Source: Closterium sp. NIES-65
Taxonomy: Eukaryota; Streptophyta; Zygnematophyceae; Desmidiales; Closteriaceae
DNA: 64,000 bases
Direction: 5' to 3'
Assembly (NCBI GenBank): GCA_948144175.1
Contig: CANXME010001453.1
Coordinates: forward strand, 434,001-498,000
Shown: positions 41,588 through 64,000 of the stretch, in pieces
Layout of the letters: each line of letters opens with the position of its first letter
How positions within the stretch are numbered: the first letter of the stretch is position 1
Program-made: the position numbers and the translations under genes
Notes under the pieces: model-generated
The model's input: the letters and a program-made list of their open reading frames with translations, nothing else
The model's database searches: none
What the model was told of the DNA's origin: nothing

Positions 41588-44239
41588 TTGGGAGCAGAGG
41601 AGATGAGTGGAGAAGCACCTGAGAAGAAGAGTGAACCGCCACCGTCCAAGATCGAGGCTTTGGACGGCTCCAACTACGAGGAATGGAGCGGGCGGATGCG
41701 GAGCGCTTTCAAGCGCTACAAGCTGCTGAAACTTGCGATGGGAGAAAAGAAGATGCCGGAGGAAGGTGATGCCCGCGACAAATGGATTGAGAAGAGCGCG
41801 GTGCTGTACGACCTAATTCTTCAATCGGTCAACAATGATATGTTCCAGCATATCAAGGACCTAGTGGAGCTGGACGACTCCGGGCCTAAGGCGTGGAAGC
41901 TGCTACGCGATGTGGTACAACCCAACACGCTGCCGATGGTGATCGTAATGGAGAAGGAGCTGGCTGCTCTCTCCATGAAGGCGGGAGACGATGTGAAACC
42001 GGTCCTTGACAAGATCAAGGACACCTATGCGAGGATGGCAGCGGCGGGCAGCAAGGTGTCGGAGATGCAGCAGTGCACCAAGATCATCTCGGTGCTCGAC
42101 AACTCGTGGGACAACCTCATCCCCACCCTCAACGTTCAGCAGGACAAGTGGACGCCTGAGTGGCTACGGCAGCAGATCCTGCAGGAGGACTTCCGCAGGC
42201 GCCACATGGGAGGTGGTGCTGCCAACAAAACTGCTGAGGGGTATGGAGCTGCAGGAGGCAGCAGAGGAAGAGGGGGAGGGAGAGGCCGAGGCCGTGGGAG
42301 AGGCTTTGGCAGAGGAAGAGGCCGAGGTGACTACAACGAGGGGCATGGGAGCTCTGGTGGCAAGGGGAGTACCCGAATGGAGGGTGCGTGCTGGTACTGC
42401 AAGAAGGCTGGACACCCATGGTTCAAGTGTTTCAGCCGGCCTGAAGGATGGGCGCCTCCAGGCATGAAGCCGCCAAGTGGTGAACGTGCACGAGGTGGTG
42501 CTGTGCAAGGTTCAGGTGCACAAGGTGATGGTGCACAAGGTAAAGCCGACCCTGGTATGTTCCTCATGGTTGATGACGTGCAAGGGAGTGGGGGTGATGT
42601 GGGTTCAGTTGGGAAGGTTGTCATGCACCCCCTCACTCACTGGGTGATCGATTCAGGTTGCACAAGTCACATGACTCCACGGGCAGATTTGCTTGATGAG
42701 GTGAAGCCCCCTGGGAAGATAAAGTTTGTGGCTGCCGCTTCAGGTGCCTTGCTCCCTGTGATTGGTGTTGGGAATGCCAAGGTTATGGGAGCTAATGGGG
42801 GGCTTGTGGGGCTGGGAAATGTGCTGTTGGTTGAAGGTTTATCCGCTAACCTCCTCTCTGTGCGCCGGCTGCAGAAAAGCAAGGCCAAAGTTACGTTCGG
42901 CCCAACCAGCTGCCGTGCAAAGCTTGGGAAGTTGCTGCTGTGGGATTTGGAGGAGAAGAGCAGCTGCATCAAGGACCTGTGGCAGCTGCCCATCATCCCT
43001 TGGAATGGGAAACCTCCAGCAACGGCAAAGGCAGCGGCAGCGGCTAAAGCAACTGCGGGAGGAGAGGAGACTGCACCAACTGCTGGGGCCCTGGATGCAG
43101 TCAAGAAGGTGCAGTAGCCACAGCAATCACATGGTGAGGTGCTTGCTGGTGTGGATGCAACGGCTGCATGGGCAAAGGCTTCTTCTGGGAGTGGTGAGGC
43201 CGATTGGGAGACGTGGCACGAGAGGTTGTGCCACATCAACATTCCGATGCTGCAGAAATTGGTGAAGGATGGGAACATGAAGGGATTGGAGGTGAAGGGG
43301 GCAGCAAGGGAGATTGGGAGCTGCCCTACATGCCTTGAGACCAAGTTCACGAAGTTTCCCTTCAGCAGCAGCACGGAACCAGCGAAGGCTCCACTTGCAC
43401 TTGTGCACATGGACGTGGTGGGCCCCACGAGGGCCCCTTCTCTCTCGGGCAGCCGCTATTTCCTAACCATTGTGGATGACCACACACGTGCGGTGTGGTT
43501 CTACCCTCTCAAGACTAAGGGGGAGGTGGCAGCGGCTGTTCTCAAGGAGTGGATGCCGAGAGCACAAAGGGAGAGCGGACACAAAGTGAAGGTGATCCGC
43601 ACCGACAATGGGGGAGAGTTCATTGGCGCTGTTTTTGAGGCGGTGCTGAAGAAGAAGGGGATCCAGCATCAGCTCACGGTGCCCTACAACCCTCAGCAGA
43701 ACGGCGTGGCTGAGCGGTTCAACCGGACCCTGCAGGAAGGTGCTCGCACTCTCCTTGGGCGTGCAGGGCTGCCGGATCCGTTTTGGGTGACTGCACTACG
43801 GCAGGTCGTTGTGGTGAAGAACAGGGTGCTCGCAACTGTGGGGGACAAGCAGTGGGTGCCTTACACCAAGTGGTATGGGAGTGCACCAGCAGTCAACATG
43901 CTGAGAGCCTACGGCTGCATGGTGGTGTTTCATGTGCCGAAGGAGAAGAGGGGAAAGTTGGAAGCTTCTGGAAGATGGGGTGTGCACTTGGGACTTGCGA
44001 AGGACCACAAGGGCTGGCTCATATGGGACTTGACCAGCCAGCAGCTGACAGTGTCAAGGGACGTGAAGTTCCTGGAGTCCTTGTACTACAAGGAGTGGAA
44101 GCAGCAGCAGCAGAAGCTTCCTACGACACCGCTGATCGTTGAGGCCGATGAGATGCAGCGGCCTTCGAGGCAAGTGGAGGTTGCCATCTCAGAGGAGGAG
44201 ATCTCTGGGGTGACTGAGGATGGGGGAGAACCCGAGGTG

Positions 44240-44280
<41 letters not shown>

Positions 44281-46051
44281 GCAGCAGCAGCAGCAAGATG
44301 CTCCACGAGGTGCCGCACGTACGGCTGACCGTCCTAAGAGGGATGTGCGCCCTCCTAACCGGCTGACCTATCCGAGCTTTGGGAAGCCGAAGGTGGTACG
44401 GGCTGGGAGTGTGGCTGAGCAGTGTGATGAGGAGGAGATAGCGCACTGCTACTGGGCAGCCGTCCCTTAGCCCAAGACGCTTACCGAGGCCTTGAGTGGG
44501 CCCGATGCTGAGAAGTGGAAGCAGAGTGTGAAGGAGGAGTACGACTCACTGCTGGAGAATGAGACGTGGGAGCTGTGTGAGCTGCCACCCGGGAAGAAGG
44601 CAATTTCTTCCAAGCTGATTTTCAGGCACAAGTACGGACCTGATGGGGCGCTGACCCGCTACAAGTCAAGGCTTGTGGCTAAGGGGTTTCAGCAGACAAA
44701 GGGAAAGGACTTCAACGAGCTCTATGCTCCTGTGGGGAAAGGCACAACACTTCGGGTGTCATTGGCAATGGCAGCAAACCGTGGATGGCGGGTGAAGCAG
44801 ATGGACATCACCACCGCCTTCCTCAATGGGATCATTCTGGAGGAGCTGTACATGTTACAGCCTGAGGGTTTGGATGATGGGAGCGGCAGGGTGTGCAGGC
44901 TCAAGAAGGCCATCTATGGCCTGAAGCAGGCTCCTCGTGCATGGTACCACAAGTTAGAGGAGACTCTGCTGGCTGGGGGTTTCAAGAAGAGTGAGTGTGA
45001 TCACAGCTTGTTCCTGCTGCAGGAGAAGGAGCAGTTTCTCATGCTCCTGGTGTATGTGGATGACATCCTGCTCTTCTCTGATTCGTCTGCAATGATTGAG
45101 CATGTGGAGGAGATGCTGGAGATGCAGTTCAAGTGCTCCAAGATGGGAGATGTGAAGTACTATTTAGGGATGCATGTGGAGAGGGACCTTGACAAGGGAG
45201 TGTTGAGGTTGCACCAGAGAAAGTATTGTGAGGGGCTGGCTGAGAAGTATGGGCTGCAAGATGGAGGAAAGCCAGCCACCCCACTGCCTTCGGGGTTCAC
45301 TGTGGAGCCCTGTGCTGATGAGGAGGTGGTGGGTGAGAGTGACAGGAAACTTTTTCATTCCATGGTTGGGGCACTCAACTATGCGGCTAACCACACACGG
45401 CCTGACATTGCCTTTGCAACATCCAGGCTTGCCAGTGTGGTTTCACGCCCCAGTCATGAGCAGCTGGAAGCGGCCAAGAGGTTGGTTCGCTATGTGAGTG
45501 CAACGGCATCAGTGGGTTTGGAGTACAGTGCTGTGCGACAGAGGCTACAGAGGGGTGCAGCTGATTTGAGCAAGGGGGAGATGCGCTTGACTTGCTACAC
45601 CGACGCTAGCTTCAACTCAGTGAAGACGGATGGCACCAGCATTGGAGGCTATGTGTGCCTCTTTGGAGGTGGTGCAGTGAGCTGGCGCAGCAAGAAGCAG
45701 AACGAGGTGGGGCTGTCCTCGTATGAGACAGAGTACATGGCCCTTCATCATGGGGCAAAGGAGGTGGTGTGGCTGAGGCGTTTGTTGGAGGAGATTGGAG
45801 TTGGTCAGAGGGAGCCGACTGTGATTTTCTGTGACAATGAGTCGGCGGTGAAGCTAGCAAAGAATGCTTGTCTTCATGGGCTGACCAAACACATCAGGCC
45901 TAAGTGGCACTGGGTGAGAAAGCTCTTGGACAAGGAGGTGCGGCTGGAGATCGTGAAGACCCATCAGCAGGCGGCTGACATTCTCACCAAGCGCCTGGCT
46001 GAATCTGAGCATTGGAAGGGCATGAAGCTTGCTGGGATGAGTGTGCATTGA
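41588..46051 (+). pseudogene. Copia gag-pol coding region of young lineage B element
   Basis: Parts in order: UBN2-type gag (PSKIEALDGSNYEEWSGRM, about 41640-41700; QQILQEDFRRRHM, about 42170-42210); CCHC knuckle CWYCKKAGHPWFKC (about 42390-42430); protease WVIDSGCTSHMTPRADLL (about 42640-42690); pre-integrase WHERLCHINIPML (about 43215); integrase core from HMDVVGPT (about 43405) with RTDNGGEF (about 43600) and QQNGVAERFNRTL (about 43695); a glutamine-rich hinge; RT with STAFLNG-type ITTAFLNGIILEELY (about 44810), YGLKQAPRAWYHKL (about 44920) and VYVDDILLFSD (about 45050); RNase H with YTDASFNSVKTDGTS (about 45600). There are about two breaks. It resembles the Tork/TNT1 branch, judged from the motifs. 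Confidence 0.9.
44243..44297 (+). repeat. CAG trinucleotide run in Copia hinge
   Basis: A CAG run, interrupted once by CCG, encodes a polyglutamine tract between integrase and RT. Length variation here would not disturb the frame. Confidence 0.9.
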
Positions 46052-48792: not shown

Positions 48793-51700
48793 CTACTGCT
48801 CATCCTCGAGCACATCATCCTCCTCAGCTGCCTTCTTCAATTTGAAGCCTGCAGGGAACGGTGTCATCACAGTGCGACCCCCAGTCACACCATACCGCTC
48901 CATGACACCAGAGATGTAGTGTGACTGATGCACCTTCAGCCACCTCCTCTCAACATCCCTCTCAATCTGCAGCCCCAAGTAGTAGTGGACATCCCCCAGC
49001 ATCTTGCACTTGAAGTTGTCCACCAACAGCTTCTGTGTCCTCTCAATCTGCTCCATGGAAGGTGAGAACAGCAGTATGTCATCGACATACACCAGCAGCA
49101 AAAGCAGCTGCTCCCCCTCTCCAAGCAGAAACAAGCTGTGATCCGCCTGGGACGTCTTGAAGCCTCCACCCAGCAGCACCTCCTCCAGCTTCTCGTACCA
49201 ACACCTGGGCGCTTGCTTAAGGCCATAGATGGCCTTCTTAAGCTTGCACACCCGGCTGGTCCCATCCTCATAGCCGTCGGGCTGCGCCATGTAGATATCC
49301 TCCAGCAGTATTCCATTGAGGAACGCAGTGGTGATATCCATCTGCTTCACGTGCCATCCCTTCACAGCTGCGCCAGCCATCAAAGTCCTCAATGTCATTG
49401 GCTTAGCAACGGGAGCGAAGATCTCCCCGAAGTCGACCTTCTCCTTCTGCTAAAACCCCTTGGCGACCAAGCGGCTCTTGAACCGCTCCAACGCACCATC
49501 AGCACCACTCTTCACTTTGAAGACCCACTTGCTGCTGATCGGCCGTCGCCCCTCGGGTAACTCAACAAGCTCCCAAGTCCCATTCTCAATGAGACTATTG
49601 AACTCCGCATCCATGGCAGCCTTCCACTCCTCCTTTTGGGGTCCACTCAGTGCCTCCTCCACTGTGGCTGGTTCTTAAGGCAAGGGTGTGAAGAAACAGA
49701 ACGCCATCTCCTCATCCTCTCCCTCATCCGCCTGAACCGCCATGGCACCTTGCTTGGGTCCTCCCAAACGGCTATACTTCAGCCTTGAGGGTGCTGCTGC
49801 CACTCTCTTCTCGCGGGTTGCAATCTGTTGCCCATGTGGTGAAGCTCCTCTCTGCACACTCCTCTTGGTGACCTTGGCGTTTGTTGCAAGCTCGGGCTGA
49901 GATGGTGAGTCCACACGTGCCGACTCATCCTCCAACCCCTCCTCCGCAGCAGGACCAGAAACTTGCTGCTCACCACCGCCACTGTGGTCACTGGTCAGCT
50001 CTGACCCAGGGAGATCCTCAAGGTGCAGCTGAACATCCTCCACTGCAGACCGCTCAATCTCCTGCAGACGCAAACCAATCTGCACCTGCTGCTGCTGCTG
50101 CCAATCCTTGTACATGACGTCCTCCAAAAACTTGACGTCACGACTGACGAGCGTCCTCTTGCTCTTGGGGTCCCACATCAGCCACCCCTTCGAGTCAGGA
50201 GCCATCCCAAGATGGACAGCCCACACAGCAGCAACTTCCAGCTTGTGCCTCTGCTCCTTAGGCACCATCAGAAGCCCCATGCAGCCCCATACCCGCAACA
50301 TGTCAATGGATGGCTTCTTTCCAAGCCAACGCTCGTACGGCACCCAATGCTTGTCGCCAACATGAGTCAAGACCCTGTTCTTGACCGTGATGACATGGCG
50401 AACGGCATCAGGCCAGAACTTGTAGGGCATCCCAGCAGCCCCCAACAAGGTCTTAGCCGCCTCGCCAATGGTCCGGTTGGCACGCTCAGCAATGCCGTTC
50501 TGCTGCGGTGTTCCAGGGCAGGTCAGCTGATGTCGGATGCCATTTCTCTTGAGGAACTTGGTGAATTCCGCTCCAAGGAACTCTCCACCTCGGTCGCTCC
50601 TCAGCACCTTCACCAGCCGCATCGCTTGCCGCTCCACCATCGGCAACCAATCCTCCTTGATCGCCGCTGCAGCATCGCTCTTCTTGGACAAGGGATGCGC
50701 CCACGTGAAACGGCTCCATTCGTCCACCATGGTAAGGAAGTACAGCACTCCCCCAGTCCCCTCAGTCCTCATAGGACCCACCAGGTCCATGTGTATCACC
50801 TCCAGCGGCGCCTTCGCTGATCCCACCGCACGTGGAAACGGGAACCGCGCAAACTTGTTTTGCATGCACGCCTCGCAGCTGCCATAGTGAGCGCCATCTC
50901 CTTGCAGTTGCAGCCCATGCACGCACTTCTCCTTATGCATCACCTCCAGTGTTGAAACAGCCACGTGTGCAAGCCGCCGATGCCAAGTCTCCCGATCCGC
51001 TTGGCCCGAGGTAGCCGACGCCTTCACCGCCGCGCTTCCTCCAATCAGCTCCTCTCCTTGCACACCTTGCTGCTCCTCCTCGGTGACACTCTCCTCCATA
51101 GATGCCGCCGCTGCCGCCTTGCCCGATTTCCGCCAAGGGAGGACCGGGATCTGCCACATCCGCTTGTGGACATCTCCCTTCCACTGCAGGTCCCAAATGA
51201 GGCGCTCATCGTTGTAAGCACGATAGCGCTCCGAGCCAATCGTCTCGGTGTTCACACCTGCATCTCCCAACCGGCCGGTAGAAATCAGGTTTGCGCACAA
51301 GTCCGGCACCCACAGCACATTCTTCAGCCCCACGAGCTCTCCATCCGCTCCCATGAACTTGGCGCATCCCATGCCCATGACCTTGGCCTTGGCGCCCGTC
51401 GCGGATGGGACCGTAGAGATAGGTGCGGGCTGAATCTCATCGAGTAGGTCCGCACGAGGAGTCATGTGCCAGGAGCTTCCCGAGTCAATCACCCAATGGG
51501 TGAGGGGGTGTAGGAGAACCTTGGCAGCCATAGCGAGGTCGGTTGCGCCTTCGTTCACGAAAAAGAAGAACCCGGCCTTCCGCTCCTCAGATTTGCCGCC
51601 TTTCTCCTCCTCCTTCTCCTCTCCACTAGCTCCCATGACTCCCCCACTCCTCTTGCCACCATGCAGGTTGCTCAATGATGTCCGCGCTTCTTGCAGTAGA

Positions 51701-52150
51701 AGCACACCTCCCCTTGACCCCCGCCGCCATCCTCCTTAGGGTTGTCCTTGTTTTTGCCCTTCCACTTCTTCTTGAAGCCACTCTTTCCACCTCGAACTCC
51801 ATAGCCAGCCCCCTCCTCCGAGCGCTCCACACTCCGCCGCCGCAAGTCCTCCTCTAGGATGCACGCGCGAATGTAATCCACGCTCCATTGGGGTTGTTGG
51901 GAGTTGAGGTTGATCGCTAGGGCAGACCACGACTCCGGCAGCCGTATCACAATCTCCACGCATTGCACGAGCTCCGGGTACACCACACCTCCTCCTTGGA
52001 GCTTCGTGAAGATGTCCCGCATCTCATCCAACACCGGTTGCATCGGCTCTCCATCAACGAACTTGATGTCGCGCAGCCGCCGCGCGAGTAGCACGATGCC
52101 GGTAGCATGTGTCGGTGAGTGCACATCCAGAAGCTTCCTCCAAGCCTGGA
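48793..52150 (-). mobile_element. Lineage B Copia truncated at both ends
   Basis: No LTR is present. Reading leftward: gag C-terminal half (from about 52150; [19 protein letters not shown] near 51850), CCHC knuckle [10 protein letters not shown] (about 51700), protease WVIDSGSSWHMTPRADLLDE (about 51500-51440), pre-integrase TWHRRLAHVAV (about 50990), integrase HMDLVGPMRTEG (about 50795) with RSDRGGEF (about 50600) and QQNGIAERANRTI (about 50505), then RT with ITTAFLNGILLEDIY (about 49340) and VYVDDILLFSP (about 49100). It ends inside RT, before RNase H, where the leader of the Copia at 35641-48790 begins. At least one break lies in the coding region. It is moderately old, though one long stretch is still open. 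Confidence 0.85.
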
Positions 52151-53205
52151 TCGTTGCTGGTGCGTTGCAGAGTCCAAACAGCATCACTAAGTATTCGTAG
52201 GAGCTGTATCTGGTACAGAACGCCGTCTTGTGGATCGAGTTGTCCGCCATCTTGATCTGCCAGTAACCAGACCATAGGTCCAGCTTCGAAAAGACTGTTG
52301 CACCACGGAGTTGGTCAAGTACGTCGTCTATGCGCGATATGGGATATTTGTTTTTGAGCATCTGTTTGTTCAGTGCGTGGTAGTCTATGCACATCTGCAA
52401 ACTACTGTATGGTTTCGGGGTGAAGAGAACTGGTGCACCGTAAGGAGAGATGGTTGGGCGGATCAGTTGTCTGTCTAGTAGATACTCGATCTGCTTCTTC
52501 ATGTCTGTCAGTTCGGTCGGACTCAGTCGGTATGGTGCACGTGAGACAGGTTTTGCACCTGGTTCCTGCACAATCTTGTGCTTGTGGGTGTGTGCTAGAG
52601 GTACGCATGCGAGTAGGTCGTCGGGCATTCTATCCTTGTACTGCTCCAAGACCTCCTTCACGGCTGCAAGTAGTTCGGTACTAGGCTTCTCCTCCTCTTC
52701 TGCTGCCATAATCAGTGCTAAGTAACATGTGTTACTATCGTTCACCGTCCGTTCAAACCGTGCTAGCATCATGTCAGGAACATCCCCTGTGTCCGTCCAG
52801 CTCAGCAGCTCCACTCGTTTCCAGTTGCTGTAGATGCGAGCCTTCCGATTGACCCAATCGAACTCGGGGTTGAACCGCTTCAGGAAATCTCGCCACAAGA
52901 TGAAATCTAACCCTTCGATGTTGGTGACTGGTAACATCGTCTTCTACCTCAACGCATCTATGTGCAGCTGTAGTGATGTTTCGCCGTGGATGGGAAGCTT
53001 CGTACCGTCCACCATCGTTGCTGAGATTGGGTCTCCTCCGCCTTCTCTCCAATTTTCTCCATCGTTTCGCGGTTGCACACCGAGTGAGATGCACCGCTGT
53101 CCACCAATGCCTGGAGGTGTTGTCCTTTGCATAGCACCTTGAGGAGTAGTGGTTTGCGCTGAGGTGAGTAGCCGAAGGTGTTGTTCAGGATCCGTCACTT
53201 TGAGA
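52150..53205 (-). mobile_element. Gypsy protease and reverse transcriptase fragment
   Basis: Reading leftward: a retropepsin core with ALVDSGASHSV (about 53110-53080), a [20 protein letters not shown] block (about 52900-52840), then RT with [20 protein letters not shown] (about 52590-52530), [19 protein letters not shown] (about 52465-52410), [20 protein letters not shown] (about 52395-52335), [14 protein letters not shown] (about 52295-52255) and [12 protein letters not shown] (about 52185-52150). It stops before the catalytic YxDD box. The direction and type fit the 5' part of the chromodomain Gypsy at 30616-35640, but that link is inferred. Confidence 0.8.
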
Positions 53206-53965
53206 GCTTACGACGAACTCATTACTCAACTAAACGCAAATCCGCTCGGTAGAAAGTTGCGCCTTAGGCTTAGCTACCATCTCCAAGTTGAATCAGTCGT
53301 TAAGATGGTCTATAGAGTGAGAACCAAGTAAAAACGTCCAGTAGCCGCATGACTAGAATGGTAGAGGAAGTACAAGCATGTAGGCATAGAAAGTTGGAGT
53401 TGGGAACCTCCAAGAGAACCATGAGAGGGAAGGGGTTCTCCAAGAGCTAGGGAAGGATGGTAGGAACCTTCCTAGCAGCAAGGATGCAACCCTCATCATG
53501 AGGTCCTTGAGGTGTCACATGCAAAATCCAATCTAGTTGGATTTTGCCTAGGTGTTGCAATATTTGCAACCCATGCTAGAAACTTCTAGCCACCCCAATC
53601 CAAAAGTCAAAGTTGCCTTCCCTAACCACCCAACCAAAGATCCCTTTATAGTCATGTCCCAAGTAATCACCCAAATTAGATATAACCCCAAAAGGTAATT
53701 AGAAATCCAAGTCTTGGAAATCTTGTAACTTGGGCGATCTTGGTCGGAATAAGGCGATCTTGGTATGTCGGAAACCTCCTTGCTCTCTCCCAGCTAGCTC
53801 ACTGCCCACCCTGCTACCCTTGCTCCTGCCCACACATCCCTCCTCTCCTCTTTGTTCCACCCGCCCCATCTCTACTCATATTGCCCCTTGACGCTCTCCC
53901 TTCACCCTTGCCTTGCCTTCAATGACTCCCCCCCCCCTTTGTTCTCCTTTCTCTGTATTGCTCTG
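53206..53965. other. Spacer between two Gypsy elements; possible 3' LTR region
   Basis: No gene recognised. 53394-53590 holds a series of short perfect hairpins. 53780-53965 is C/T-rich on the plus strand, that is purine-rich in the direction of the Gypsy to the right, with a run of ten C at 53930-53939 that could be its polypurine tract. An LTR should lie just left of that tract, but I could not match it to a copy on the other side of the element. Confidence 0.5.
53394..53590. repeat. Cluster of short perfect inverted repeats
   Basis: Consecutive hairpins: TTGGAG/CTCCAA (53394-53413), GAGAACC/GGTTCTC (53414-53440), GCTAGGGAAGG/CCTTCCTAGC with one bulge (53446-53476), GCAAAATCCAA/TTGGATTTTGC with a 5-base loop (53521-53547), GTTGCAA/TTGCAAC (53554-53570), GCTAGAA/TTCTAGC (53575-53590). 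They are not copies of one another. Confidence 0.75.
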
Positions 53966-56900
53966 CTACCCCACTTTCTGCTTACCCTTATCCTTGTTCA
54001 TTTCCTTCTCAGCCCCTTCCTGCCCCCTCCCGTGACGCATCGCCGCCGCCCTCGCACGCGTCACGGGACCAGAGGGGTTTCCCTTGCCTATCTCCGAGCG
54101 AATCCTCGCCACATTGGTCACGTGATCGGACACCTGCTTGCCCTTACCATCCTCTAGTATGATCACCCCCGACGGCTTGACTTCCTTGACTGCCCACCGT
54201 TGCTGTGATAGCCCCACATCCAGGGCGTGCTGCCGCTGCCGCCTCAGGTACACCTCCTCCCCTTCCTGCACCCCTGCATTCTTTTTCCTGCCCTTTACTT
54301 CTTGCCGCTGCTTGTACCTCTCAATGTCCCGCAGCTGAGCAACGTGCAGATTCTCCATGGCTGCGGGCAGCAGCCGCCGTAGGTAGGCTGCTCGCGCATC
54401 GGCTACTACAACCCATTTCTCTGCCGATCCTGTGGTCACCACGTCCAGGAGGAGCTTAGGTGCCCCCACTGGCATCACTGGCTCCTTACCAAACAGCAGG
54501 TAATACGGCGACACATCCTTGAGTGCTGCCTGCTTGCTAAACCGGTACCCAGCCATAACCCAGCAGAGCCTTTTGTCCCAATCCCGCTTATGCTCCTCAC
54601 CGTAAGCCCTTAACCCTCTCTTCACCGTCTGCACCAGCCGCTCGGTCAACCCATCACTCTGCGGATGATAACGTGACGTGCAGCGGTGCCTGATCCCTGT
54701 TGCCCTGAGCAGCTCATCGAACGCTCCTTTAAATTCTGTGCCTTGGTCCGTCAGCACCTCCCCGCATGCCCCCAGACGTGTGATCACCATTTCCTCAAAC
54801 GCTTCTGCCACCGCCTCTGCCGTTTTGTGCACTAAGGGTTTGGCTTCTGCCCATTTACTCACGTGTTCCACCATCAGCAGTATGTAACGCCTTCCCTTCG
54901 TGCTGAGTGGCAGCTCCCCCGCAATGTCAAGCGACCACCTATAGCCCAAGCTCACCACCGGCAACGGTTGTAGCTCTGCCTTTTCCCGTTCCAGCACCGC
55001 CCTGTTCCGGCCGCATGCCTCGCATTTCCATACCCAGTCCTTAACCTGCTTGCGCAGGCCTGCCCACCACCATCCGGTTTGCACCAGCTGCTGCGTTCTT
55101 AGTGGCCCGTAATGGCCCAGCTTCTCGTGTACCTCCTTGATAATGCCTTCCCTCTCCTCTGGTGCGGGCACGTGCTTCCAGCCTTCTCCTGTCCTTAGCT
55201 GCACTTGCCCCTTGAACCAGCGGTAAAACTCCCCTCGTGCTCTTACTCTGGCTGTCTCCGCTCCTGCCTCTGTTGTTGCCCCCTGAATCCAAGCTAGCGC
55301 TGCCTTGTCTTCCCATATGTCTGCAGGTCCGCCTCGCCCTTCTCCCCACTGTCCCCCTTGGTCTGCTTCCTTGGCCAGCGCCATTAGGCACGCTGAGGGC
55401 TGCATCACCGGCGGGTTCCTCGAGAGCCCGTCAACGTGCTGCATGGTTTTCCCCGGCCTATGCCTAATCTCGAAGTCGTACTCTTGGAGTTTCATTGCCC
55501 ACCGCGCGTTTCTGCCCGTCAAATCCGACGTCTGCATGAGCCACAGCAGGGGTTGGTGATCCGTCACCAGGGTAAACTTCCTCCCGTGTAGGTACACCCG
55601 GAAGTGCTTAACTGCCCACACTACTGCTAACCCCTCTCCCTCGTACGATGAGTAGTTGCTCTCCGCTGCATTGCAGCTGCGGCTTGCGAAGGCCACTACC
55701 TTCTCCACCTCCCCCTTCATCTGCGCCAGGACTGCACCCATGCCCACGCTGCTCCAGTCGGTGTAGAGCACGTAAGGCAGATCAGCTCTGGGTAGCTCCA
55801 GCACTGCTCCATTCTTTACGGCGCCCATGAGGTCCTGCACGGCCATCTCCTGGTCTGGTCCCCACTCCCACTTGCAATCCTCCCTCAATAGCTGATTCAG
55901 CGCTTGTGCTCGGCTGCTGAAGTTTGGCACAAACTTCCTGTAATAGTTGAGGAAGCCCAGCAGTGCGCGCAGGGTACTCCTGTCCTTCGGTGTTGACACG
56001 CGATCCAGCACCTCCACCTTCGCCTTCTGTATGCCGATCCTCCCCCCTGCCACTTCGAATCCTAGGTACGCCACCGTGCTCTGGCCAAATTTACACTTCC
56101 CTGGGTGACAGGTCATCCCGGCGTTCTGTATCGCACTCAGGACCGCCTCAACATCCCTCGTATGCGCGCTGCTGTCCCTGCTGAACACGATCACGTCGTC
56201 GATATAGCAGGCGGCATTCGGCACGTCGCGCAGAATCTGATCCATAATGCGCTGGAATTCCGGCGAGGCCGATTTCAACCCAAATGGCATCGTGTTCCAT
56301 TCATATTGCCCATCCGGCCCGTGGAAGGCGGTCTTCTTCCGGTCAGCTTCTATGATGGGTATCTGGTTGAACCCCTGCCGCAGATCCAAGGTGGAGAAGA
56401 CTGCCGCTGCCGCCAACCTGTCGAATAGCTCATCTGGCGTGGGCGTTTGATACCGTTTCATCACCGTCACCTTGTTGAGCCCGCGGTAATCCCCGCACAT
56501 TCGCTTCGACAGCACTTGCCCTGTGAGGTCTGTCCTAGCAGCTACTACCGTGGCTGCTGCGTATTCCGAGTTGGACTTCCGTATGAACCCAGCTTCCATC
56601 AGCTCCTGGCATTTCTCTGTGCAGATCTGTAACTCTTCTGCTGTCATCCTCCGCCGCCGCTGGTATACTGGAATCTCCGTGGTTAACTCGATGCTGACCT
56701 CCGCCATGTTGCACCTGCCCACTTCCTTCAGCGTGTATGCGAACGCCTGCCGATACTTTGCAAGCACCTTCCTTAGTTCTGCCGCGTCCACTTCGGTGAC
56801 GCCATCTCCGATCTCCCACTGGTGCTCTGCAGCCGCTGATGCCGCTGGCTCCTTCTCCCTCGTCCCCCGCGCTAACCCTTCCGCCTCAGCTGGCTCCGTC

Positions 56901-59900
56901 GGCTGGCCCTGTGCCTTCTCCCGCGACCGTTCTCCCTCTGTCTTCGCCTCCGCTCCTACCTCCTTCGTTGCCGCCATCAAGGCGAACTCCCGCTCATAGC
57001 TCTCCCTACTCCGCTGCCTCTCGATGGCCTCCTCCACCCAGTCCAAGTCCTCTCGCTTCTTGTCCACGGCTGCCTCTTCCCGAGCGGCTGGCAGCTCGAT
57101 CTGGGTCTGTTCTGCATATACCGCTGGTACTTCGTCCTCCTCTTCCCACGGATATACCCACCTCTTCTCCAGTGGATGCCCCAACTGGTGCTGGACCCTA
57201 TCATTCGCGTACATCTCTCCCAGCATGGCCCTGGCGAGGGCTTCTTTAGCAACCGAGCGCTCCGTGGGTGGCTGCACTGCTGCCGCCTTGTCTCGTTTGC
57301 GCTCCCACCGAAGCTGTGAGTGATACATCCGTATCGTCGCCACCAGCCAGTGCATGACGTTCAAATCCATGGCTCTCCCCAGAGCCCGCCTCCTCGCCGT
57401 TTCTGTGACCTCTGGATGCGCGGTTGCATCTTCCATGAAGCCCATGGCCAATTCTCGCTCTAGCGCTGTCGGTTCCTGCCATTCTCCCGCTGTACAGTCA
57501 TACACCATTCCTGGCCCCGGGTCTTCCCCGTGCATCTTAAAGGCCGCTGCACCCTCGTATGACACGAACGTGGGCCAAGCCCGCCGCGGCTTTCCTATCT
57601 CATTGCACGCAAACTGCGTCGGATGATCCGGCCGTGTCACTGGTGCGGGCATCCTCCCGACTTCAAGGACGTCTTCCACCAACAATGGCACGGGGCGTTC
57701 CATCAGCGACAAGCGATACTGCAGGGCTGCACTCGTTACTCCATTCGTCCAGTAGCGGCGCACCCTATGCGCTCGGCTGCCCGTCTGCGCCCCATCCACT
57801 ACAATCCCCGGGCCGAGTACCCCCGTCACTTCCTCATGTGCCACTTGGATCTGCTCCCGCACATCCCCCTCCATGTCCACGTTCTCCACGATGTAGAGCA
57901 CTTCCCCCTGCACCCGCTTGAGAATTCGCAGCACTCGCACTAACTCCCTGAAAAGGCTGCTCCTTTCGTCCCTCATGCCTCTGCCTGCCCCTGCCCGTGA
58001 ATATCCTTGACACTCCCATCCCGCAATGACCACATCAATCTTCCCCCATCCCCTTATGGTCTGCTCCGTCACCATCCGTATGTCGCAGGCCTGAGTGTGC
58101 GTGCTTTGCTCCAACGCCAAAGCCGTCAGCTGGTGCGGGTATCTCTTTTGCAGCTGCTCCGCGTGATTCCATGCCATCTTCACCGACTCTGTGTCTGACT
58201 CCACCAGTATCCACTTCTCCACGTAGGCCCCGGCCTTTAGGACTGCTGCTAAGCCCGTGCCGATGCCGCCAAAGAGCTCCAATACCACTGTGGGACCCAG
58301 TAGCTTCTTAGTGTCCGTGCATAACTGCCTCAGGTTTCCTTCGTCCTCGTCAGTCCCCTCCGCTGGTGTACGCATCCCCGCGGCTTGCTGCCAGGAAGGT
58401 ACTCCTAGCTCTTCGCGCAATTCTGCTTCGGTGCACTGGTAAGCTTCCCTCGGCTCTCTCCTCACGAAGCGCACTGGCAACGTGCCAATGGGGCCATCAT
58501 CCTTCCAGTAGTGTACGCGATACTGCATCTTCTCCTCCCACATGCAGATTGTCGAGCCGATGCCAAAGAGATACTCCACTCCTATGAGCAGATCAAAGTC
58601 CAATGAGTCCGACACTCCGCAGTGCACCCTCAGCGTGCACTCCTCTGGTGTGCCCGGATTCAGCACCAAGGCCATGGACTGCCGCGTTTTAGGCATCCAC
58701 TTCGCCTCTCCTCCCTCCGCCGTCATAAGCAGGTAGCCCTCCGGTATCAGTCGCTCAGCCTTGTCCAGTTGCAGCTTCTCCGCCAATTGCTTGCCGATTA
58801 GTACATGTGCAGCTCCCGTATCCACTATGGCTCTCTGGGCTCGTAGCCCCCCAACCGTGATTGCCCCCGGTTCGATCGTCAGCACCGTGGCCTGACAGAT
58901 CATGCGATTGCGCGGATGCCGAAACGCCGCTCCTTCTCTGTCCTCGGTTGCGCTTGCCCTCCTCCTCGGGCCATCTTCCCGCCTTTCGTCCTCCCTGAAG
59001 AGCTGTCTGCGCGCGCCGCTCCTTAGGCCTAGCTCCTCTCGCTCCCGTGCGGGTTGCGCCATTAGCATGAACTCTGGCTCTTCCGAGTCTTCCTCTTCCT
59101 GCGCCACCATCGCCGGCTGCTTCTCCTCCACTGCTTCTAGCTCTGCTAATTGCGCCCGCAGCCGTGCCATGACGGCTTGCCGATCTTCACCTCCCTCCAC
59201 TCCTCGCCTGTCCCTGCGGTTTGCGTAGCAATCTGCCTCCCGATGCCCCTTCCTTCCACAGCGTGCGCACACTGGGGCCCCCGGACAGTCCCGTCGCAAA
59301 TGCTCGCGACTCCCGCAGAGCGAACAGGCTGCTGGGTTCCGGCAGTCCCGGCGCAGATGTCCCGGCTGCCCACAGTTGTGGCAACGTCGGGTCTCTTCCC
59401 TTCCCCTTTCCTCCACCTCCTGATGCGCGGACGTGGCTGCCCACGCCGGCCGTCTCCTCTCGGATCCCCGATCCACCGTTCTCTCGACCTCGTAGAGCCT
59501 GCGTCCCGTCTCCACTCGTTTGACGATTTCGTACGCCTCCTTCAGCGTCGCTTCCGCGCCCAACTCGAACACCCTCACTTCCACGTCCTGCCGCAGTGGT
59601 TGACTGAGGCCATGGACAAACTTGCCGATCAGCCGGCCCTGGTCTCCACAGTTCATGTCCTCCCCCAATTCCACCAGCCTCCCGTAGTAGGCCAGCAGCG
59701 ATTCTCCCTCTCGCCTTCTGAACGACCGGAACTCGACCACTCGCTCTGCCGTCTGCGCCGGAAATTGCTCTCGCAACATTGCTAGGAACCTTGCCGTAGG
59801 ATCCCTTTCGCCCGGGGCCCGTCCTGCCGCCCACTCCAGCAGCTCCTTGCGAGATATGCGGTAATAGGTCTCTGCCTCCCCGGTCAACGTATTTGCTAGC

Positions 59901-60385
59901 CCTCGGAAGAACTCCTCCGGGTCCAGCTGATCCTTCGCCCATCGCGCTTGCAGATTCTCCAACTGCATGATGTAGTTCTTCAGGCTTGGACCTCTTTGAG
60001 CATCGCCGGAGAATCTCTCCGGCACTTCGATCTTTGGCAGCTGAGTGTACTTCCAGCGCTGCATCATCATCTCGTCTTCCGTGCCTTGCCACGAGGCGCT
60101 GCGCTGATATCCCACCGGTCCGCCCATTTGCGACTGCGGTCGCGCCGGCGGCCCTTGCGCTCCCTCCGACCCAGTTGGCGCGTTGCCCCCGCCTCCTGCG
60201 CTTCCGATCTGAGCACCTCCCCTGGGGCCGGTTGCTCCTTCACTAGGCCCAGTCTGGCCTTCCGCATCTCCGCCTCCCGGCGGCAGATCATTCTCCCGCT
60301 GATTCCCGTCTCCTCCCCTCATCCTCTCGTCCTGTCCTTTCGTTGCTCTGACTACTTCTATCCACCTTCCTGACCGCAATCGCAT
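53966..60385 (-). mobile_element. Gypsy retrotransposon carrying a DNA cytosine methyltransferase
   Basis: One uninterrupted frame fills the region and encodes gag, protease, a C5-cytosine methyltransferase, RT, RNase H and integrase in that order. RT before integrase defines Gypsy. The coding region looks whole. No chromodomain is seen after the integrase. I could not recognise the LTRs: neither 53206-53965 nor 60386-62488 shows an obvious long match with the other side, so either the LTRs are diverged or rearranged or the copy is flanked unusually. An open frame of this length argues for recent activity or selection. Confidence 0.9.
53966..60385 (-). CDS. Gag-protease-methyltransferase-RT-RNase H-integrase polyprotein, 2139 aa
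   Basis: The start is the first ATG of the frame (60385); a short in-frame stretch upstream is open without recognisable domains. Gag spans about residues 100-310. Three CCHC knuckles follow: CHNCGQPGHLRRDC (335-348), CSLCGSREHLRRDC (354-367) and CARCGRKGHREADC (373-386). The protease active site DTGA is at 522-525. The methyltransferase occupies about 690-1025. A charged linker (1026-1195) leads to RT with MCGDYRGLNK (about 1296-1305) and YIDD (1394-1397). RNase H starts near YTDWSS (about 1541). The integrase has an HHCC-type finger (about 1753-1793, ending CEAC) and acidic residues D1820, D1880 and E1915. Gypsy polyproteins usually run 1,300-1,600 residues, and the extra length here is the methyltransferase plus linker. 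Confidence 0.92.
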   Translation of the reverse strand: MRLRSGRWIEVVRATKGQDERMRGGDGNQRENDLPPGGGDAEGQTGPSEGATGPRGGAQIGSAGGGGNAPTGSEGAQGPPARPQSQMGGPVGYQRSASWQGTEDEMMMQRWKYTQLPKIEVPERFSGDAQRGPSLKNYIMQLENLQARWAKDQLDPEEFFRGLANTLTGEAETYYRISRKELLEWAAGRAPGERDPTARFLAMLREQFPAQTAERVVEFRSFRRREGESLLAYYGRLVELGEDMNCGDQGRLIGKFVHGLSQPLRQDVEVRVFELGAEATLKEAYEIVKRVETGRRLYEVERTVDRGSERRRPAWAATSAHQEVEERGREETRRCHNCGQPGHLRRDCRNPAACSLCGSREHLRRDCPGAPVCARCGRKGHREADCYANRRDRRGVEGGEDRQAVMARLRAQLAELEAVEEKQPAMVAQEEEDSEEPEFMLMAQPAREREELGLRSGARRQLFREDERREDGPRRRASATEDREGAAFRHPRNRMICQATVLTIEPGAITVGGLRAQRAIVDTGAAHVLIGKQLAEKLQLDKAERLIPEGYLLMTAEGGEAKWMPKTRQSMALVLNPGTPEECTLRVHCGVSDSLDFDLLIGVEYLFGIGSTICMWEEKMQYRVHYWKDDGPIGTLPVRFVRREPREAYQCTEAELREELGVPSWQQAAGMRTPAEGTDEDEGNLRQLCTDTKKLLGPTVVLELFGGIGTGLAAVLKAGAYVEKWILVESDTESVKMAWNHAEQLQKRYPHQLTALALEQSTHTQACDIRMVTEQTIRGWGKIDVVIAGWECQGYSRAGAGRGMRDERSSLFRELVRVLRILKRVQGEVLYIVENVDMEGDVREQIQVAHEEVTGVLGPGIVVDGAQTGSRAHRVRRYWTNGVTSAALQYRLSLMERPVPLLVEDVLEVGRMPAPVTRPDHPTQFACNEIGKPRRAWPTFVSYEGAAAFKMHGEDPGPGMVYDCTAGEWQEPTALERELAMGFMEDATAHPEVTETARRRALGRAMDLNVMHWLVATIRMYHSQLRWERKRDKAAAVQPPTERSVAKEALARAMLGEMYANDRVQHQLGHPLEKRWVYPWEEEDEVPAVYAEQTQIELPAAREEAAVDKKREDLDWVEEAIERQRSRESYEREFALMAATKEVGAEAKTEGERSREKAQGQPTEPAEAEGLARGTREKEPAASAAAEHQWEIGDGVTEVDAAELRKVLAKYRQAFAYTLKEVGRCNMAEVSIELTTEIPVYQRRRRMTAEELQICTEKCQELMEAGFIRKSNSEYAAATVVAARTDLTGQVLSKRMCGDYRGLNKVTVMKRYQTPTPDELFDRLAAAAVFSTLDLRQGFNQIPIIEADRKKTAFHGPDGQYEWNTMPFGLKSASPEFQRIMDQILRDVPNAACYIDDVIVFSRDSSAHTRDVEAVLSAIQNAGMTCHPGKCKFGQSTVAYLGFEVAGGRIGIQKAKVEVLDRVSTPKDRSTLRALLGFLNYYRKFVPNFSSRAQALNQLLREDCKWEWGPDQEMAVQDLMGAVKNGAVLELPRADLPYVLYTDWSSVGMGAVLAQMKGEVEKVVAFASRSCNAAESNYSSYEGEGLAVVWAVKHFRVYLHGRKFTLVTDHQPLLWLMQTSDLTGRNARWAMKLQEYDFEIRHRPGKTMQHVDGLSRNPPVMQPSACLMALAKEADQGGQWGEGRGGPADIWEDKAALAWIQGATTEAGAETARVRARGEFYRWFKGQVQLRTGEGWKHVPAPEEREGIIKEVHEKLGHYGPLRTQQLVQTGWWWAGLRKQVKDWVWKCEACGRNRAVLEREKAELQPLPVVSLGYRWSLDIAGELPLSTKGRRYILLMVEHVSKWAEAKPLVHKTAEAVAEAFEEMVITRLGACGEVLTDQGTEFKGAFDELLRATGIRHRCTSRYHPQSDGLTERLVQTVKRGLRAYGEEHKRDWDKRLCWVMAGYRFSKQAALKDVSPYYLLFGKEPVMPVGAPKLLLDVVTTGSAEKWVVVADARAAYLRRLLPAAMENLHVAQLRDIERYKQRQEVKGRKKNAGVQEGEEVYLRRQRQHALDVGLSQQRWAVKEVKPSGVIILEDGKGKQVSDHVTNVARIRSEIGKGNPSGPVTRARAAAMRHGRGQEGAEKEMNKDKGKQKVG
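57310..58320 (-). other. C5-cytosine DNA methyltransferase domain inside Gypsy polyprotein (DNMT3-like)
   Basis: Residues about 690-1025 show the ordered motifs of the family. Motif I, for S-adenosylmethionine binding, is LELFGGIGTGLAAVLKAG (F705-G711 core). An acidic residue follows in ILVESDT (about 726-732). Motif IV is AGWECQGYSRAG with the presumed catalytic C792. Motif VI is VENV (834-836 ENV). Motif VIII is SRAHRVRRYW (R871, R874, R876). Motif IX-like sequence is ERELAMGF (about 975-982), and motif X-like sequence is GRAMDLNVMHWL (about 1003-1014). The GIGTGLAAVLKAG and RVRRYW segments resemble DNMT3 more than DNMT1. The expected reaction is transfer of a methyl group from S-adenosylmethionine to carbon 5 of cytosine. 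Activity is unproven, because motif IV has Glu-Cys where nearly all members have Pro-Cys. Confidence 0.88.
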
Positions 60386-61896
60386 TCGGACTGCGTGATT
60401 GTAAAAAAAGCCCTTCCTCTAATCCATCGGACTGCAGATATGGCTTCGCTAAGAAACTGCTTATCTCGAGAAGAATTCACAGTAAAATGCGAAAACAATC
60501 ACGCAGTGGCAGTCCCATGGCCCAGGCACCTCTAATATTGCACCCTCCCCCTTAGCCTAGCTAAGCATAGCTACCAACAGATGAGTGCTAGCAGCTCAGC
60601 TTCGCCACCCTTGCAGCTACCCTGCCTTCTTCCAGCTGGCGGGTGTGACTTCCAGCTTCCCCTGGACTCGGTGTCTGCACACAAGCAAGAAAACAAACAC
60701 ATGCATCCCATCAAACCCCACCCCCCCTTTCCGCCACGTAAGCTTGCCAACCCTTCTCCCAGCCAGCCACAGGTTCGTCCCAACCTTCTCCCCCTGCCTG
60801 CAACTGCCGAGTTGCCCTCCACCTCCTGCGATCGCTTCTACACCCCGTTATCCACTTCCTCGACTATATACAAATGTACACATTATTCCTCCTTGCCTCC
60901 ATTACAGCCCCTCCTTTACTTGTCAGCGTTCTTTAGGATTTTCCCTCAAGAACTCTGACAGGTATCGTTGGAAAGCTCTGGATTTCTCCTGCATGATCAA
61001 GCATTTAGACTTGGAGAAAAAACACAGAGATGACAATATCCAACAGCCATGCATAATGACATATGCTCATGCAAATCATGCAAGCACAAATAGCACGAGC
61101 ACTCGGCAGGACGTTAGGATGACATGCACTCAGAATGACGTGCATCCAACAGAAGGTAGTCTCATAATAGGATCATAAGGTACATCAAGGAAATCACCTT
61201 CCCTATTTCCTTTACATGACTTGGCACTCTCCAACTTCACTTGGGAGGATTTTTCCAAGGCTTGTAAAATTTCTCCTGAACCTGGAATTGTCCTCTAAGC
61301 CTTTGCAGCTATGTAGGCTTCACCTGTGGGTCATGGGGAGCCTTAACACGGTGCTATGGGGAGAGGATATTAACTCCACGGAACGTACTGTTGACTGCTA
61401 ATTGGGACCTAGAAGCTCTAAGCACACCTTTAATCAACGCTGGATAGTCCTCACGGGGTCACCTCCAAGGGTCCTTGGGTGCCTGGTAGAACCGGTCCCT
61501 ATCCAAGGGTCCGTGTTTGTCAAAGGACTTTTCAAGCATGAAAACAATCGTGTGCACTGGAGCACTCTCAAGCAAAATTGCGGAAGCAATAACGACAGAT
61601 TGGCGGGTATGCAGAAAATTCTCCTCGCGTCAATACGTCGATAGAGAAAATGTTCACTCCAAAAAGGTGATTACAATGAAACACAAGCACACATTTATAG
61701 AACTACTAATGCACGAGTAAAGCAAACACAAGGCAATCATTTAATAGTTACAAAACTGTAATATAAGACTTCGCCATGTTGTCTTGGTAAAACGGTTGTC
61801 AAACTTCAGCTGCATTTGGCTTGATCCGCTTTATTAGAATAACTATTTCAGATGGCACTTCATCCAAACGCCCCTGCTGACTCCCCTCGCGAGCAC
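60386..61896. other. Spacer upstream of methyltransferase Gypsy
   Basis: No gene recognised. A perfect 13-bp inverted repeat (ACTGCGTGATTGT at 60390-60402, ACAATCACGCAGT at 60495-60507) lies just upstream of the Gypsy start codon. The minus strand has a TATA-like TGTATATAG at 60864-60872, about 480 bp upstream of the start codon, which could serve the Gypsy. 61440-61520 contains CCAAGGGTCC twice. Small open frames show no domain. Confidence 0.55.
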
Positions 61897-62325
61897 TCAT
61901 GAATTCCCGTTAACATTCATGAAGCCTCGTGTGAGAAAACCGTTTTTCCATTACAAAACGGATTTTACCGTTTTGTACCTGAAACATATTTGTCACGCTA
62001 GGCGCGCGACTTTCCAACGAAGTATCTTGTTCGCCACGTCACAAAAGTCAAAGCTCAAGATCTAGTTATTCAACTGAAATCTCGAGTCAATCCCGAGCAC
62101 CCTTCGGGATTCCTCGGCACCCCCCGAAACCCACGCGCGCACCCCTCCACGCGCGTAATCATGCACGACCGAATTTTCGGTCGTGCTGTACAGCGCACGA
62201 ACGTGCGCTGTCCTGCTCGAGGGCAGGGCAATCATTTGCCCTGTCCTTTTGCGGATGTGCGCACTATGCACGCTCGCCACAGTGCGAGGCACACGCATGA
62301 GGCCTTAGGGGCCACACGCGCGTGT
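61897..62325. repeat. Run of consecutive short perfect hairpins
   Basis: Stem halves in order: TCATGAAT/ATTCATGA (61897-61922), TACAAAACGG/CCGTTTTGTA (61952-61977), AATCCCGA/TCGGGATT (62089-62111), ACGCGCG/CGCGCGT (62133-62156), GCACGACCGAA/TTCGGTCGTGC with a 2-base loop (62163-62186), ACAGCGCACG/CGTGCGCTGT with a 2-base loop (62190-62211), AGGGCAGGGCAA pairing with TTGCCCTGTCCT through one G-T (62220-62247), CGCACT/AGTGCG (62260-62286), and the palindrome ACACGCGCGTGT (62314-62325). Confidence 0.85.
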
Positions 62326-62488
62326 CAGAACCCCACGCGCGGGCCCTGACCTTCGCACTAGGTTGACCTTGACCAGCACGAAAAGGTCAAACTTGCAAAA
62401 CACTTGCCTCACTCGAAAAACTCACGAAAATATGAACTCTCGTGAACGTTAATGAAAACTCACAAAAACGCATGAGAAATCATGCTCG
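62326..62488. other. Spacer left of right-edge Copia
   Basis: No gene. AT-richer sequence with repeated CTCACGAAAA and CTCGTGAACGTTAATG-type words. It ends in GCTCG, the five bases flanking the Copia LTR. Confidence 0.5.
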
Positions 62489-62613
62489 TGTGAAAGAACG
62501 AGGAATGATTGACTAAGGAATGAGTGTGATACAAATATGAAACCCTAGAATTGTGTACCCCTTAGTATCTAGCCCGCGACAGCCTACACAGGCTAGATCA
62601 TATAAGTCTGACA
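62489..62613 (-). repeat. 3' LTR of right-edge Copia
   Basis: 125 bp, beginning TGTCAGACTTATATG and ending TTCTTTCACA on the minus strand. Confidence 0.85.
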
Positions 62614-62805
62614 CACCCCCATAGGCAAAGTGGGGGAGAACAAGGGGTCACAAGACCAGTCAAGCAAAGCAAGCTCAGGGTGGATCACAACATCATCACA
62701 CATTCCGAGCACAAGTTCAAGGCCACAAGGCCAGTTCACATGCAAGATTATATATAAAGGTAAACAAGCAAGCGCAGATATAGATAGATCACAGTAGAAG
62801 CAAGG

Positions 62806-64000
62806 TCAAGAAGTGAGCAAGTGAGGCCAAGTAGGCACAAGACCTAGCATCGTACAAAAGCGCTGATGATCACAAGGCGGAAGTGCCTTGGTAAAGATAT
62901 CAGCAGTGTTGGCCTGAGAGGCCACGTAAGCAAGGCGCAGCTGGCCATGCTGCTGCAGCTCACGAGCAAGGAAGTAGCGAAGAGCAATGTGCTTCGTTCT
63001 GTGCTCCAGTCTGTGCTCCCGACACAAGGCTAGCATGGCCTTGTTGTCTACGTACAGAACCGGAGGAGAACGAGGCGACTCTCCTAGTTCAGTCAACAGG
63101 TAGGTGAGCCAGCGTAGCTCCTGTGCAGCCATGGCCCCTGCGTAGATCTCAGCCTCACAGCTAGAGCCGAGAACAGAAGACGAGCGGGTAGACCGCCACG
63201 AAACAGAGCCGGAGCCAAGGCTGAAGGTGTAACCCTGTGACGACCGCTGTAGAGCCAAGTCGTCAGCCCAAGAAGCGTCTGCGTGACCTCTGAGGACCAC
63301 TGAACGCCGCCCTCCAAGCACTAGCCACATGCCCGACGTACTGCACAAGTAGCGCAACACCCTCTTCGCTGCAGCCATGTGCTCTGGTCGGTGTCTCCCA
63401 GGAGCAACATAGCGTGCCAAGATGCTAAGAGGGTATGCAAGGTCAGGTCGAGTGCAGGTCATCAGGTACATGAAGCAGCCAACAAGCTCTTGGTACGGGC
63501 CACTCGGCTCTACGGACTCATCCGAAGGCAGAGCTGAGAGCGAGTGGCGAGTAGACAGAGGAGTGGCCTGAGGCGAGGTGTACGTGAAGTCGAAGCGCTG
63601 AAGGACCTGCTGCACCATGTGTGACTGAGTCAGGGTAATGGTGCGCTGTGCTCTGTCCCGGGTGATCTGCAATCCAAGGTAGCTGCGCAGTTCACCCAGG
63701 TCTGTGCACGTGTGTCTCTTCTGCAGCTCGGACTTCACGTGGGCGAGTCCAGCAGTGTCAGCTGTGGCAAAGACCAAGTCGTCGACGTACACGAGGATGT
63801 AGAACGGCGGCAAAGAGGTGTCGGTCCGTAGAAACAGCGACGGGTCGGCAATAGAAGGAGCAAACCCAAGAGCCGCAAGTGTAGTCCTCACTGTGTCGTG
63901 CCACTCACGGGGCGCCTGGCGGAGACCGTAGAGTGGCCCCCGGAGGCTCCACTGGGTACAAGGAGGAAACGACCCAGTGAAGCCAGGTGGGCGGCGCAGC
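62806..64000 (-). CDS. Copia reverse transcriptase (C-terminal) and RNase H, partial
   Basis: From the right edge leftward: the RT finger and palm with FILVYVDDLVFATADTAGL-type YVDDLVF (about 63775), ELRSYLGLQITRDRAQR (about 63695-63650), the connection with HMVQQVLQRFDFTY (about 63620), GCFMYLMTCTRPDLAYPLSI (about 63480-63420), and RNase H with HADASWADD (about 63285), SSCEAEIYAGAMAAQELRW (about 63165-63110) and the terminal EHRTKHIALRYFLA block (about 63010). It ends just before the 3' untranslated segment. The first part lies outside the window. Confidence 0.9.
   Translation of the reverse strand, partial: LRRPPGFTGSFPPCTQWSLRGPLYGLRQAPREWHDTVRTTLAALGFAPSIADPSLFLRTDTSLPPFYILVYVDDLVFATADTAGLAHVKSELQKRHTCTDLGELRSYLGLQITRDRAQRTITLTQSHMVQQVLQRFDFTYTSPQATPLSTRHSLSALPSDESVEPSGPYQELVGCFMYLMTCTRPDLAYPLSILARYVAPGRHRPEHMAAAKRVLRYLCSTSGMWLVLGGRRSVVLRGHADASWADDLALQRSSQGYTFSLGSGSVSWRSTRSSSVLGSSCEAEIYAGAMAAQELRWLTYLLTELGESPRSPPVLYVDNKAMLALCREHRLEHRTKHIALRYFLARELQQHGQLRLAYVASQANTADIFTKALPPCDHQRFCTMLGLVPTWPHLLTS

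Follow-up and report, generated by a model that had tools for sequence, protein, structure and literature searches.

Introduction

DNMT3 domains have been reported inside a Gypsy element of the alga Klebsormidium nitens, whose copies show a ratio of nonsynonymous to synonymous substitution (Ka/Ks) below 0.2, and inside DIRS elements of Symbiodinium, where they methylate CG sites de novo when expressed in yeast (de Mendoza et al. 2018, PMC5890265). Here we describe a putative relative in Closterium sp. NIES-65: a stretch of 64,000 nucleotides (contig CANXME010001453.1, positions 434,001 to 498,000; hereafter the window) encodes a Ty3/Gypsy polyprotein with a candidate C5-cytosine methyltransferase (MTase) between its protease and its reverse transcriptase (RT). 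A preliminary description of this DNA, made from the letters alone, had pointed to a 2018 report of methyltransferase-bearing retrotransposons, and that report is indeed the one cited above. DNMT-bearing retrotransposons are thus already known; the new point is the catalytic motif IV, which in the majority of the relatives analyzed here reads ECQ.

The element described as KnitGypsy-Dnmt3 from K. nitens resembles that of the window in carrying a Dnmt3-type domain within the Pol frame of a streptophyte-alga Gypsy, with motifs that are not rearranged and key residues that are reported as conserved. It differs in its host and in the DIRS-like repeats reported there, none of which were found here, and the comparison was made against its published description; no protein labelled K. 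nitens was among the returns of our three protein searches, in each of which about 8000 candidates were scored. SymbioDIRS-Dnmt3 likewise has its Dnmt3 domain in one frame with RT, but it is a DIRS element with a tyrosine recombinase, whereas the window holds a Gypsy with an rve integrase, and its acquisition of the domain is reported as independent. Among titles on Closterium, Marchantia and zygnematophytes we found none on DNMT-bearing elements; the species tables of PMC5890265 may include Closterium or Marchantia. The words "retrotransposon" and "methyltransferase" are absent from the main text of a paper on Closterium genomes (PMC10407611).

Results

Sequence comparison and modelling support the assignment of residues 690-1025 of the polyprotein to a C5-cytosine MTase of the DNMT3 type, set between protease and RT of an open Gypsy frame. 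Pfam DNA_methylase was recovered in a scan of the full polyprotein (E 2.5e-8), and the isolated domain matched PF00145 (E 2e-9; 37.8 bits, cut-off 22 bits), chains of human DNMT3A (E 7.4e-11) and the dcm model TIGR00675 (E 1.3e-10, yet at 41.5 bits below that model's cut-off of 100.65). A profile of ten sequences reached DNMT3A at 1.7e-25 and, more weakly, 4onj (2.5e-17), DRM2 (3.2e-14), HhaI (5.4e-12) and a tRNA C38 methyltransferase of the DNMT2 type (8e-10), so that by profile DNMT3 is the nearest family, ahead of the DRM, bacterial and DNMT2-type enzymes; 4onj has the database title "DNA methyltransferase" and is presumably a DRM. The predicted structure likewise has a DNMT3-like fold. The catalytic domains of human DNMT3A and DNMT3B are the best match in sequence, profile and structure; they differ in reading PCN in motif IV and in belonging to host genes with PWWP/ADD domains, and identity over the structural alignment is 24-27%. 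Both the assignment to the C5 family and the likeness to DNMT3, as proposed in the preliminary description, are borne out, the profile match being significant and the best match not an unrelated Rossmann-fold enzyme.

The frame runs without internal stop from a gag-like region to the integrase, as had been stated, over 2,139 residues counted from ATG (2,150 from stop to stop). Along it Pfam places zinc knuckles, aspartyl protease, DNA_methylase, RVT_1, RT_RNaseH, Integrase_H2C2 and rve, the protease at 23.9 bits against a cut-off of 24.3, with its DTGA motif present. No gag family was matched in the Pfam scan, and the label "gag" is given because of the zinc knuckles and their position in the frame. 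Protease, RT and RNase H are followed by the integrase, an order that identifies the element as Ty3/Gypsy. Motifs I, IV, VI, VIII and X of C5 MTases all occur in the expected order, with the catalytic Cys and the motif VI Glu in place. The features of the element are as follows.

53966..60385, minus strand: single open reading frame, gag-protease-MTase-RT-RNase H-integrase polyprotein, 2,139 residues (frame translation, Pfam)
59228..59383, minus strand: three CCHC zinc knuckles, at 59342-59383, 59285-59326 and 59228-59269 (Pfam, pattern positions)
58811..58831, minus strand: protease active-site motif AIVDTGA (Pfam just below cut-off, motif)
57311..58318, minus strand: C5-cytosine MTase domain, DNMT3-like, residues 690-1025 (Pfam, profile, structure model, VIA-align)
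58259..58276, minus strand: MTase motif I, LFGGIG, binding of S-adenosylmethionine (SAM) (alignment, motif)
58004..58021, minus strand: MTase motif IV, GWECQG, catalytic Cys retained, Glu for the preceding Pro (alignment, motif)
57875..57889, minus strand: MTase motif VI, VENVD (alignment, motif)
57749..57769, minus strand: MTase motif VIII, HRVRRYW (alignment, motif)
57362..57391, minus strand: MTase motif X, RRALGRAMDL (alignment, motif)
56051..56506, minus strand: reverse transcriptase RVT_1, YIDD at 56195-56206 (Pfam, motif)
55478..55783, minus strand: RNase H domain (Pfam)
55001..55162, minus strand: integrase H2C2 zinc-binding domain (Pfam)
54662..54943, minus strand: integrase core (rve), catalytic motifs present (Pfam, motif)

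The preliminary description was right about the order of the MTase motifs and had overlooked that motif IV is not canonical. It reads GW-E-C-Q-G in place of PCQ or PCN and so lacks the hallmark Pro before the Cys, a residue we hold to be non-defining since it is not catalytic. The conserved triad of this motif has been described as PCQ (PMC6709928), and a limited look at parts of the motif IV literature found no report of an ECQ form. For a census we aligned 97 retroelement rows, after removal of 14 bacterial-type rows from 111. The residue ahead of the Cys could be read in 67 rows, which are copies and kin rather than independent events: 48 carry Glu there, 18 carry Pro and one carries Ser (49 ECQ rows were flagged, and P0052, which reads GAECTE and is misaligned, was discounted). 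Readable rows labelled Closterium account for 33 of the Glu and for the single Ser (P0032), with no Pro among them; the window supplies one of the 15 further rows with Glu, and environmental proteins supply the rest. Across the filled retroelement rows the catalytic Cys is kept in 68/68, the motif VI Glu in 70/71 and the pair of Arg residues in motif VIII in 62/66 and 62/65. The corresponding counts are 48/48, 44/45, 35/36 and 34/36 among ECQ rows and 18/18, 18/18, 16/17 and 17/17 among PCQ rows.

The searches returned 109 distinct proteins, whose labelled hosts are Closterium (NIES-53, NIES-54, NIES-65, NIES-68 and Naga37s-1), Marchantia polymorpha and, for one protein of bacterial type, Ectocarpus. 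The closest relatives are all from Closterium: P0053 (Naga37s-1; 86% identity over 281 residues, 92% in the search listing), P0030 (Naga37s-1; 75% over 411) and P0027 (NIES-53; 68% over 345). Taxonomically Naga37s-1 belongs to the Closterium peracerosum-strigosum-littorale (C. psl.) complex, and these protein matches make a member of that complex the most likely host. The MTase also sits between protease and RT in P0004, whose protease falls just below the cut-off, in P0007, and in the locus L010, where a stop separates the MTase frame from the RT frame. In Marchantia it follows a protease-like stretch in P0011, P0015, P0016 and P0019, and in P0015, whose protease is recognized by alignment only, it precedes RT and RNase H. 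These four and P0095 share about 34-42% MTase identity with the window; unlike it, P0011, P0015 and P0095 have PCQ in motif IV, which is broken or missing in the models of P0016 and P0019, and the Marchantia protein models are incomplete. Between the window and P0001, P0004, P0005, P0006 and P0007, identity is 44-58% for the MTase, 52-69% for RT-RNase H, 53-76% for the integrase, 25-48% for the protease (in P0006 over 12 residues only) and, in the four with a gag, 24-68% for that region, which P0006 lacks.

The MTase tree comprised 41 of 61 retroelement rows, mostly the fuller ones, that passed a coverage test, together with DNMT3A and six bacterial-type rows, all six with Pro before the Cys; a second tree was built without nine of these 48 rows, namely the bacterial-type ones (including M.HhaI) and P0094, P0016 and P0045, which are long or damaged. 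DNMT3A groups with the retroelement rows against the bacterial-type rows (Shimodaira-Hasegawa-like approximate likelihood ratio test 99), on a branch flagged as long and as the sole host DNMT3 in a tree without DNMT1, CMT, DRM and DNMT5. Fifteen Closterium-type rows, the window among them, form one group (91/100), as do 14 on the RT tree (100/99), drawn from a partly different set of proteins; P0004, P0005 and P0007-P0010 form another group on both trees, and deep branches of the MTase tree lack resolution. The groups obtained with the MTase and with RT agree in broad terms, from Closterium through environmental contigs to Marchantia, so that the union of MTase and Gypsy is old. Judged from these sequences, the descent of MTase and RT is long and joint, and a recent capture of the MTase is rejected by both trees. 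With the motif IV column left out, the MTase tree requires at least three changes at the residue before the Cys (Ser counted with Glu), a single ECQ clade is not rejected (approximately unbiased test, p-AU 0.102), and on the RT tree the ECQ-bearing P0013 groups with the PCQ-bearing L010 and Marchantia P0015 (98/98). The Pro-to-Glu change is thus old, and one origin, two origins or a reversal are all compatible with these trees.

A bacterial or phage origin of the domain was also rejected. Of nine viral-contig and six genome-contig loci, the 14 other than L010 gave only partial matches, of 26-53% identity and each with Pro before the Cys, in a control limited by a genome-contig pattern that admitted only Glu or Pro before the Cys and by confirmation of 6 of the 50 matching stretches. 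L010 (contig CADCWO010000201.1, 9.3 kb, labelled as a Synechococcales metagenome-assembled genome) is a full-length match with RT, integrase and PHD finger, and its contig looks like a eukaryotic contaminant of the cyanobacterial assembly.

Discussion

What might a retrotransposon gain from an enzyme of the kind that hosts use to silence retrotransposons? With modest confidence we favor the view that the window holds a member of an old streptophyte Ty3/Gypsy lineage, in which a DNMT3-type MTase between protease and RT methylates the element's own complementary DNA (cDNA) or its fresh insertions de novo. The MTase would be made as part of the polyprotein, be packaged together with RT and integrase, and act on double-stranded cDNA or on newly inserted copies. 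Such copies would start out methylated, and hence silenced or disguised, in a state that maintenance enzymes of the host would pass on, so that damage to the host is limited and copies are kept. On this model, Glu in place of Pro next to the catalytic Cys would be a variant that is either tolerated or tuned.

Several observations weigh against this self-methylation model, the strongest ground for doubt being the Pro-to-Glu change itself: Pro precedes the Cys in 14/14 non-retroelement C5-MTase loci fetched from viral and genome contigs. The motif VI Asn is altered in 12/71 rows, in 11 of them to His, and the near copy P0030 lacks the motif VI Glu; the census rows, having come from sequence searches, also favor conserved copies. 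The domain of KnitGypsy-Dnmt3 gave no methylation in yeast, in a test that its authors call inconclusive (PMC5890265). RT and integrase surpass the MTase in conservation in each of the five comparisons with the relatives above; the MTase in turn exceeds the protease in all five, and this intermediate rank speaks for function. Finally, no repeats of long terminal repeat (LTR) type of at least 40 nucleotides were found at 50000-64000, and the copy, having no detected LTRs, may not be self-mobile.

It is possible, if rather doubtful, that methyl transfer has been abolished or much changed in the ECQ enzymes and that the domain is kept to bind DNA, RNA or SAM, for instance in guiding cDNA or integrase, or that it now works on a different substrate, RNA or an RNA-DNA hybrid for example. 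That Glu so often occupies the position of a highly conserved Pro next to the nucleophile, with the other catalytic residues kept, is in line with such a change, as are the inactivity of the Klebsormidium relative in yeast and the suggestion by the same authors that RNA may be a substrate of enzymes borne by long interspersed nuclear elements (PMC5890265). Yet if no chemistry took place, it would be hard to see why ECQ rows keep the nucleophile, the Glu of motif VI and the Arg residues of motif VIII; the substitution adjoins the catalytic residues and does not hit them, and the yeast result may not bear on ECQ enzymes, since the K. nitens domain may read either PCQ or ECQ. More speculatively, and in our judgment unlikely, the ECQ lineage may have rebuilt its catalytic loop and kept it over a long time for a different job, such as acting on RNA-DNA hybrids or single-stranded cDNA intermediates, or with a context preference or rate foreign to host DNMT3.

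That the MTase is a useless passenger, inherited in a decaying element of which this copy is merely young, seems improbable. The missing LTRs, the many partial Closterium protein models and the close copy without the motif VI Glu would suit decay, but 2,139 codons are open and the motifs are kept across relatives of only 30-58% identity; an insert of 336 residues without any use would not persist, open and conserved, across so much divergence. Least credible of all is domestication, in which a former retrotransposon would now be a host gene that provides the cell with de novo methylation: the intact frame and the lack of detectable LTRs are what one would expect of it, whereas the protease, RT, RNase H and integrase motifs, all in place, would be superfluous in such a gene, the relatives of the element are numerous and divergent, and its surroundings are rich in Copia.

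An oddity published from one alga widens to an apparently old Closterium retrotransposon lineage that has relatives among environmental contigs and in a liverwort. It thereby becomes testable why elements carry the enzyme kind that hosts direct against them, and the motif IV Glu poses a clean single-residue question. Closterium can be grown in culture and a paper on CRISPR knockout in the C. psl. complex exists (PMC5736609), so that methylation data on older and younger copies seem attainable.

The ends of the element lie in a crowded neighborhood. A repeat search over 49000-64000 gave short matches only, neither LTRs nor DIRS-like split repeats, and the flank-to-flank local alignment scored 26, at chance level (the top five among 30 shuffles reached 27-34). 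The ends may have been lost, or one may lie behind a Copia or past the window edge. The earlier phrase "captured inside an intact Gypsy" thus stands for the open frame; the recency it implied is contradicted by the matching MTase and RT groups, and an intact element is not supported, no LTRs having been found. Among the ten frames scanned, Copia-type ones, several of them fragmented, crowd the window at 4057-9780, 15849-18347, 21300-23612, 35998-37518, 41588-46051, 49675-51705 and 62806-63999, the last being a Copia end upstream of the element. In the frame just downstream, 51672-52937 (minus strand), a partial RVT_1 reverse transcriptase, not that of the element described here, is fused to a Copia gag, as after insertion of a Copia into a different element.

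Domain composition varies among the related proteins. P0023 (ENA, 1417 residues) combines a C5 methyltransferase (633-769) with a Dam-type adenine methyltransferase (1221-1292) in one protein and looks RT-like by eye, with no Pfam RT match at 0.001. In P0022 the MTase comes after RNase H and before the integrase, not ahead of RT, so that domain order is not fixed in these elements. The Pfam scan of the window element showed no PHD finger; related DNMT-bearing elements end in one (PF00628), namely L010 (3492-6635), P0020 (under the curated cut-off) and P0022, and these pair a DNA methyltransferase with a likely histone reader.
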